Of a stretch of 39,894 bases of DNA, positions 15,468-17,193 are shown in pieces. The translations under genes and the position numbers were made by a program. The notes below the pieces were generated by a model. That model did no database searches. It saw only the letters and a program-made list of their open reading frames with translations, and had not been told where the DNA came from. Location: the NCBI GenBank assembly GCA_003164715.1, contig PLTZ01000052.1, forward strand, positions 1-39,894, given 5' to 3'. Numbering within the stretch: the stretch's first letter is position 1; each line of letters begins with the position of its first letter. The stretch is from Opitutaceae bacterium. Lineage in GTDB: Bacteria; Verrucomicrobiota; Verrucomicrobiia; Opitutales; Opitutaceae.

Positions 15468-16415
15468 TTAGGGGGCCGCGCGCTCCACGCCGAACACCGC
15501 GTCGGCGTAGTTCTCGGCGCTGAAGGCCTGCAGGTCCTCGGGCCCCTCGCCGAGCCCCACGAAGAAGATGGGCAGCCGCAGCTGGCGCCAGATCCCGACG
15601 ATGGCCCCGCCCCGGCTCGTGCCGTCGAGCTTAGTGACGATGAGGCCCGTCAGGCCGAAGCTCTTGTGAAACGCCTTCGCCTGCTCGATCGAATTCGCGC
15701 CAAGCGAGCCGTCGACAACCAGCCAGGCGTGGTGCGGCGCGGCCGGGTCGAGCTTGGACACGACCTTTCTTATCTTCGAGAGCTCGATCATCAGGTTGCC
15801 CTTCGTGTGGAGGCGGCCGGCCGTGTCGATGATGACCCAGTCCCGCTTCCGGCTCCTGGCGGCCTGGACGGCGTCAAACGCGACCGCCGCCGGGTCCGCC
15901 CCCGGCTTGCTCGCCACCACCTCTAGGTCGAGCCGCGCGGCCCATGACTTGAGCTGGTCGATCGCCGCCGCGCGGAAGGTATCGCACGCGGCAAGGAGCA
16001 CGGTCCCTCCCTCCTGCCTGAGCCGCCAGGCGAGCTTTGCCGCGGTGGTGGTCTTGCCCGACCCATTGACTCCGATGAGGACGATCACGGTCGGCGGCGA
16101 CGCGGCCGGGGTGACCGCGCCCTCGGAGCCCGCGAGGGCGCGCCGCAGCACCTCCGCCCCTATTGCCGCGGCCTGCCGTCCCTCGAGCCCCTTCCCGCTG
16201 CGGGCGGCCTGCTTGATCTCCCCCAGGATCTCGGCCGTTGTCTCGACGCCGAAATCCGCGGCGAAGAGCGCCTCCTCCAGGCCCTCGAGCGACGAGGCGT
16301 CGATCCGGCGACCTCCGAAGAGCCCCTGCGTCTTCGACGAGATCGCAGACACCGTCTTGGCGAGGCCCTCCCTGAACTTCTTGAGAAGCGATATCACGTT
16401 TCGCCGTTTCCGCAC
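15468..16415 (-). CDS. ftsY: Signal recognition particle receptor FtsY
   Basis: FtsY is the SRP receptor GTPase that docks ribosome-SRP complexes at the inner membrane. The 315-residue protein holds the N and G domains only, without a long acidic A domain. Visible motifs are KFREGLAKT near the N-terminus, G1 GVNGSGKTTT, the DTFRAAAIDQL insertion-box motif, G3 DTAGR, G4 TKLDGTSRGG and the closing GxGE. The open frame starts at GTG 16415; a GTG at 16397 would give a start closer to the LLKKFREGL motif. It follows nusB in the same direction by 6 bases. Confidence 0.96.
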   Translation of the reverse strand: MRKRRNVISLLKKFREGLAKTVSAISSKTQGLFGGRRIDASSLEGLEEALFAADFGVETTAEILGEIKQAARSGKGLEGRQAAAIGAEVLRRALAGSEGAVTPAASPPTVIVLIGVNGSGKTTTAAKLAWRLRQEGGTVLLAACDTFRAAAIDQLKSWAARLDLEVVASKPGADPAAVAFDAVQAARSRKRDWVIIDTAGRLHTKGNLMIELSKIRKVVSKLDPAAPHHAWLVVDGSLGANSIEQAKAFHKSFGLTGLIVTKLDGTSRGGAIVGIWRQLRLPIFFVGLGEGPEDLQAFSAENYADAVFGVERAAP

Positions 16416-16421
16416 CGTCGC

Positions 16422-16868
16422 CTAGTCGGAGGCCTTGCGGGCGTCCCGGCCGAGGTGGTCCTTCATGCGGTCAAGGATCCCGTTGATGAAGCGCTTCGAG
16501 TCGGCGTTCGAGAATTCCTTCGAGATGTCGATCGCCTCGTTGATCGAGACGACGGGCGGGATGTCCTTGCGGTGGAGCATCTCGAACATCGCGATCCGCA
16601 GGATCGCCAGGTCTATCTTCGCGATCCGTTCGAATTCCCAGTTCTGGGCGAGGACGCGGATCTGCTGGTCGATCTCCGCATGGTTCCTGATGACGCCGTC
16701 GATCAGCTCCTCGCCGAACGAGAAATGGTCCCTCGGCTTCTCCTGGCCCTCAAAAAACACCCTCAGGTCGTCGGCCAGGACGGCTGGCGGGTTAATGCTC
16801 CAGGCGTAGAGGTACTGGACAGCGGCCACCCGGCCGTCGTGGCGCTGAGCGTACTGGGCCTTGCTCAT
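16422..16868 (-). CDS. nusB: Transcription antitermination protein NusB
   Basis: NusB (148 residues) binds the boxA RNA of rRNA leaders together with S10 (NusE) and prevents premature termination. The sequence shows the all-helical family pattern: an N-terminal RHDGRVAAVQYLYAW, the mid-region LIDGVIRNHAEIDQQI, and the strongly conserved RIAKIDLAILRIAMFEM and VVSINEAIDISKEFSNADSKRFINGILD. The start is the ATG at 16868, which overlaps the stop of the upstream ribB/ribH chimera (ATGA at 16868-16865). Translation of nusB is therefore probably coupled to that small frame. Confidence 0.97.
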   Translation of the reverse strand: MSKAQYAQRHDGRVAAVQYLYAWSINPPAVLADDLRVFFEGQEKPRDHFSFGEELIDGVIRNHAEIDQQIRVLAQNWEFERIAKIDLAILRIAMFEMLHRKDIPPVVSINEAIDISKEFSNADSKRFINGILDRMKDHLGRDARKASD

Positions 16869-17128
16869 CGTGAAAGCCTCCTCCTGAGCGCCGCCATCGA
16901 GGCCGCCGCGTCCGCGAACTCGGCGCCGCGGGTGATCGGCTCGCAGTGGGGCGTGCCGCCCCGGATGGTGACGCCGAGCGCCTCGGTCGCCGCCTTCGAC
17001 GCGCCCATGACCAGGTCGCCCTCGTTCTCGCATCGCTCGTCGTCGGTGACGATGACCATCCTGCCAGCGGCGATGTCAGCCATGGCCGACTCCACAGAGT
17101 CGAAGGGCGGCGGTTGGTTTAAGGGCAT
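16865..17128 (-). pseudogene. In-frame ribB/ribH deletion chimera (riboflavin gene remnant)
   Basis: This intact 87-residue frame joins pieces of two riboflavin enzymes. Residues 1-50 match the N-terminus of 3,4-dihydroxy-2-butanone 4-phosphate synthase (RibB): SVESAMADIAAGRMVIVTDD followed by CENEGDLVMGASKAATEA. Residues about 49-65 match the middle of lumazine synthase (RibH), EALGVTIRGGTPHCEPI. Residues 66-87 match the RibH C-terminus, TRGAEFADAAASMAALRRR. Full RibB or RibBA has over 200 or about 400 residues and RibH about 155, so two internal stretches are missing. The RibB motif DDEDRENEGD reads DDERCENEGD, changing two normally fixed residues. Neither active site can form. The frame is intact with an ATG at 17128 and is translationally coupled to nusB, so it may persist as a leader peptide. 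A misassembly is the main alternative. Confidence 0.75.
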
Positions 17129-17193
17129 CCGGCCAAAATCGCCGTACGGACGCCACCTGTCAATTCGCGGCCATCCCCGGCCGCCTCGTTGGA

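Follow-up and report, generated by a model that had tools for sequence, protein, structure and literature searches.

How a short open frame that begins like RibB, continues like RibH and ends on the start codon of nusB came to stand in an Opitutaceae genome, and what it means for the riboflavin supply of the cell and for nusB, are the questions raised by this locus. The window, that is, the whole stretch of DNA analysed (39,894 nucleotides of contig PLTZ01000052.1, assembly GCA_003164715.1), belongs to a draft genome of 3.8 Mb in 92 contigs, referred to as G000, of a bacterium not known to be in culture, which is 98.8% complete and of which about 1.2% may be missing. The preliminary description of this DNA had interpreted the frame as a chimera left by two deletions in an ancestral ribB(A)-ribH-nusB-ftsY order. 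Its coordinates proved correct, and the gene order in relatives together with the two alignment gaps described below supported the ancestral order and the deletions.

Composition and origin of the frame before nusB

On the minus strand, the 87-codon frame runs from an ATG starting at 17128 to a TGA stop at 16865-16867. Pfam analysis assigned residues 13-59 to the start of RibB (PF00926, above cut-off, covering positions 1-47 of 191) and residues 46-66 to the middle of RibH (PF00885, positions 61-81 of 139) with an E-value of 0.074 and 13.4 bits versus a cut-off of 26.7; the frame holds neither a whole RibB domain with its catalytic residues nor a whole RibH domain above cut-off. Because the PF00885 match lies below its cut-off, the assignment to RibH is based on base-level alignment to six congeners with intact genes (G003, G004, G006, G007, G008 and G010). 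All six alignments contained the same two gaps of 755 and 120 bp, with exact edges varying by a few bases from alignment to alignment, and the main blocks were 72-85% identical. Read along the remnant, positions 1-150 of ribB are followed by the 755-bp gap, 47 bp from the middle of ribH, the 120-bp gap and the end of ribH leading into nusB, with switches near residues 50 and 66 as the preliminary description had proposed. The first gap moves the reading from the ribB frame into the ribH frame and the second is a multiple of three, and both junctions keep frame. The distance from the ribB ATG to the codon before the nusB ATG is exactly 1132 bp in five of the six congeners and 257 bp in the window; G004 was aligned on the same footing, its start codon lying three bases later. 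The TGA of the remnant overlaps the nusB ATG (ATGA), and the native ribH stop shows the same overlap in all five intact congeners in which this was examined. The deletions of 755 and 120 bp have removed essential parts, and whole orthologues occupy the syntenic place in relatives, where 10 of the 13 genomes sampled from the genus (G000 and 12 others) carry whole ribB(A)-ribH before nusB.

Table 1. Coordinates of features around the remnant frame in the window.
Feature	Position	Strand	Basis
ftsY, start codon uncertain	15468..16415	-	TIGR00064 E 4e-90 for 15468-16400
nusB; ATG 16866-16868 overlaps remnant stop	16422..16868	-	TIGR01951 E 6e-39
Remnant frame (RibB start and two RibH pieces; TGA within nusB start)	16865..17128	-	ORF, Pfam and alignment to congeners
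RibH C-terminal piece RGAEFADAAASMAALRRRLSR and stop, 3' of 120-bp in-frame deletion	16865..16931	-	Alignment to congeners
Candidate nusB ribosome-binding site AGGAGGAGG, within RibH remnant	16877..16885	-	Sequence; junctions of 16 species compared
RibH middle piece LGVTIRGGTPHCEPI, 3' of 755-bp deletion at imperfect 21-bp direct repeat	16932..16978	-	Alignment to congeners
RibB-derived part, codons 1-50	16979..17128	-	72-83% DNA identity to ribB of six congeners; PF00926 E 3.6e-10
GATTTT, possible -10 element, ending 6 nt before ATG	17135..17140	-	By eye; inferred only
TTGACA, -35-like element, exactly 35 nt before remnant ATG	17158..17163	-	9/9 inner-clade species
Small conserved upstream gene, 140 aa	17194..17616	-	Same place in 8 congeners

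A change of the RibB motif DDEDRENEGD to DDERCENEGD had been taken as a sign of drift, and comparison with congeners corrects this in part. The motif reads DDERRENEGD in G003, G006, G008 and G010, DDEKREN in G007 and DDEGREN in G004; DDER itself is usual in the clade, and only the exchange of R for C is peculiar to the remnant of the window. In a small test, 7 of 61 otherwise invariant residues were altered in the fragment versus 7 of 277 in five relatives taken together, G004 being excluded, with P 0.005; among control proteins of G000, FtsY (P 0.018) and NusB (P 0.054) look fast too, and RarA (P 0.42) does not.

The first junction lies on an imperfect direct repeat formed by ribB codons for (A)IGIMIR or similar and ribH codons for (A)LGVIIR or similar. 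With the highest-scoring of 17 start positions near the junction taken, the pair of 21-mers at offset 755 shows 16 of 21 matches in G010 and G008, where it ties for best among 275,409 ribB-ribH pairs; it ranks in the top 0.04% in G006, G004 and G007 and only in the top 0.25% in G003. At the second junction only a few bases are shared. Both genes read the repeat in the same codon phase, and a crossover within it therefore yields an open chimera without selection, and a 755-bp deletion on this 21-bp direct repeat can explain why the frame was kept. We propose that the starting state was one operon with intact ribB and ribH before nusB and ftsY, that 755 bp were lost, probably by recombination or slippage at the short imperfect direct repeat of ribB and ribH, and that a further 120 bp were lost within ribH.

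That the 87-residue product might be a new small protein, functional in its own right, or an unrelated conserved protein as the preliminary description had considered, could appeal to the open frame, but it is scarcely credible for a product that is pieced together from parts of two enzymes without completing a domain of either, with otherwise invariant residues altered, and that is absent from all 12 other genomes of the genus (10 with whole genes, two with other scraps).

Loss of riboflavin genes at two loci

In relatives, ribE lies apart from ribB-ribH between two neighbours, which we take to be a protease-like gene and a uracil-DNA glycosylase-like gene. At this place G000 (contig C45) retains a 56-residue in-frame scrap between the same neighbours, with a RibE start MFTGNVEETGEVESL and a RibE end VNPEFDMPGKCVEKI. 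A frame of 65 residues is found there in G005 and about 30 bp in G002. The latter two genomes have also lost ribB-ribH before nusB, with breakpoints differing from those of G000; in G002 little can be aligned on the nusB side beyond the first codons of ribB and the start region of ribH, and the start codon of its remnant was placed via the upstream alignment and a TTGACA element. Both loci, ribB-ribH and ribE, have thus decayed in each of G000, G005 and G002. In a tree built from RarA, NusB and FtsY, nine inner species separate from the rest at 100 and G005 pairs with the intact G010 at 93, and G000 and G002 are placed with poor support (42-57); that the three erosions were independent is argued more by the breakpoints than by this tree.

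The preliminary description had allowed for misassembly, that is, for a true genome in which ribB and ribH are complete here, which a draft assembly in many contigs might hide. Such an assembly or binning artefact is very unlikely, however, as the unlinked ribE place of G000 is eroded too, residues invariant in relatives are altered in the scrap, two other genomes of the genus carry their own, different scars, and the usual upstream gene is present at the locus with nusB and ftsY following as usual.

Profile searches of G000 at E 0.001 gave no match to RibH, RibE or the RibA domain and, for RibB, none to a whole protein. A flavokinase (PF01687 match at contig C58) is kept. RibD is still an open frame (C30:43319-43945, L134), with both deaminase motifs changed, NPMVG to DPMGG and GRTGAC to GSTGAC; these changes would fit early decay and make RibD a candidate for the next gene lost. 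Decay of RibD as judged by rate was rejected, since G000 is not faster overall (11 of 215 unique changes among six species, compared with 18 of 222 in G010) and only the deaminase motifs look hit.

Across the 13 genomes, a whole RibB was detected in 11 (exceptions G000 and G005), and RibH and RibE in 11 each. RibD_C was present in 12, the exception being G007, which is 64% complete; the sole RibD_C match of G005 reads as another reductase-like protein without deaminase part. Flavokinase was likewise present in 12, all except G005. This genome, which is 92% complete, contains no whole RibB and no RibH, RibE or RibA match either. At that completeness, the absence of both RibD and flavokinase matches from G005 is uncertain.

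G002 differs in that its contig C31 (L142:4868-8238) carries RibB, RibH, RibE and RibD together in a compact ribE-ribH-ribBA-ribD operon, away from nusB on C13, with a G+C content similar to the surroundings and a RibA domain with a normal zinc motif; this operon seems to replace the eroded native rib genes. The three genomes present different stages, namely scraps with RibD in G000, scraps with no RibD found in G005 and scraps with a replacement operon in G002.

The preliminary description had suggested that the cell either holds riboflavin genes elsewhere or is an auxotroph. The second alternative fits better: with a gene complement in which flavokinase is retained but a whole RibB and any RibH, RibE or RibA match are missing, G000 is quite likely a riboflavin auxotroph dependent on outside riboflavin, the absence of the de novo pathway being provisional at 98.8% completeness. 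The riboflavin synthesis genes would have been lost as a set, with ribE eroded, no RibA domain remaining and RibD still open, and the cell would most likely import riboflavin and form FMN and FAD via its own flavokinase. FMN riboswitches, which could mark an importer, were found in 0 of the 13 genomes at E 0.001. Replacement instead of loss, with a foreign rib operon in DNA absent from the assembly and native genes decayed as redundant, has its precedent in G002, but is improbable given the completeness of G000, in which no second RibB and no RibH, RibE or RibA match was found, and given that G005 also lacks all four at its lower completeness. Searches of plasmid records gave 15 with a match, none covering 80% of the query; among the five plasmid matches listed, four lay under genes annotated RibBA and one under no annotated gene. 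Taken jointly, that the 87-residue frame is a real genomic scar and that the riboflavin pathway has been lost are held with high confidence.

Beyond the genus sample, nusB is preceded by a RibH match over 110 aa in 45 of 48 scanned loci, a set that is not fully independent, since at least seven of its records come from genus genomes already used; four of the original 52 loci were dropped (two Flavobacteriales, one Bacteroidota and one Kapaibacterium locus). The three without a match are L047, which is G005, L090 and the distant L092. At L090:5740-6003 (CAIPAH010000011.1, Opitutae), there is no ribBA/ribH before nusB and a short ORF ends on the nusB ATG. L090 was not counted as a fourth erosion, its similarity to the rib region of a relative scoring 28.5, a value that does not exceed those of 200 shuffles (mean 26.7, maximum 53.1).

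In a survey of RibB/RibBA across the order (31 loci entered, G028 unrecovered, G029 and G037 not included), the protein is long and lacks the GTP cyclohydrolase II zinc motif in 23 of 30 genomes, six inner-clade entries lack the second domain, and the motif occurs only in the operon copy of G002. A long RibB without this motif is as in RibBX (PMC10012899). In three genomes of the order with sizes of 0.9-1.9 Mb (G030, G033 and G036), no RibB match was found. GTP cyclohydrolase III (PF05165) was rejected as a substitute for RibA, being found in 0 of the 13 genus genomes; these also gave no other PF00925 match, so that neither family offers a candidate for the enzyme that opens the pathway in the intact congeners.

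The remnant and the expression of nusB

The TTGACA element precedes the ribB ATG by the same 35 nt in all nine inner-clade species, including the three with eroded genes (for G004 measured to its own ATG, which lies three bases later), and TTGACA-N29-ATG occurs once in the window versus 0.04 expected. Together with a GAnnnT hexamer ending 6 nt before the ATG, this arrangement suggests that the mRNA might start at the start codon and be leaderless. The remnant would be co-transcribed with nusB.

The nusB-side remnants of G000, G005 and G002 comprise 87, 92 and 57 codons, are open from the promoter-proximal ribB ATG, and have stops that end 4, 1 and 4 nt past the start of the nusB ATG and so overlap it; the frame of G005 reaches the nusB start via a non-native stop. 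On the ribE side, where two remnants survive, the frames close 2 and 4 nt ahead of the following ATG. Under a null of random deletions with 0-30% substitution, the three nusB-side results together had a probability of 0.006-0.024 and all five of 0.00005-0.002, in a rough model that was devised after the data had been seen, takes no account of the repeat, used five relatives for the nusB side and two of three for ribE, and modelled the ribE remnant of G005 at 203 nt, its true length being 202.

It is plausible from these arrangements that the remnant acts as a translational coupling leader for nusB, as the preliminary description had supposed. It retains the promoter-like TTGACA, the ribB start codon and a frame that is open as far as its overlap with nusB, so that ribosomes could still reach nusB. 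That the frame has been kept open for the sake of nusB is less likely than not. All three erosions, with their different breakpoints, have spared the TTGACA element and the ribB start codon and left a frame that is open up to the nusB ATG and overlaps it, and on this basis it is possible, at somewhat less than even weight, that selection for expression of nusB (and ftsY) shapes the decay of the rib genes, turning dead enzyme genes into a ribosome-loading leader, with the two ribE scraps as the same process at a second locus.

As regards its present role only, there is about an even chance that the remnant is a neutral scrap, open by chance and by the repeat-guided deletion, with nusB translated from its own ribosome-binding site. 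The codon phase of the repeat explains the first junction without selection, stops are rare and open frames common at this high G+C, and AGGAGGAGG stands before nusB, with which coupling may be unnecessary. Less easily reconciled with a neutral scrap is that 3 of 3 nusB-side remnants, with their different breakpoints, and 2 of 2 surviving ribE-side remnants are open to the next start.

Relation to known systems

The kind of event is known, namely loss of a pathway with gene remnants. Among the titles listed by a literature search in which subscription journals were mostly outside the scope, none concerned collapsed rib genes or rib gene loss in Opitutaceae. The locus shows vitamin B2 synthesis genes midway through their loss in a genome of unremarkable size, and three congeners represent different stages. 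It also provides a natural experiment, run more than once, on whether the survival of particular pseudogene fragments is decided by translational coupling and operon polarity.

In bacterial pseudogene remnants of lost vitamin pathways, the genes for cofactor precursors erode and the salvage kinase stays. G000 resembles these in its eroded rib genes and retained flavokinase, but differs in that scraps persist at two loci as open frames that stop at, or a few bases short of, the start of the next gene, and in that its 3.8 Mb are no tiny symbiont genome. Unlike in rib-nusB gene clusters, the rib part has collapsed here and nusB-ftsY remain. With coupled leader ORFs, the remnant shares a short frame whose stop overlaps the next start; with leaderless mRNAs (PMC3160421), it shares a promoter-like element so near that the mRNA could start at the ATG. 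It differs from both in having arisen through the collapse of enzyme genes.
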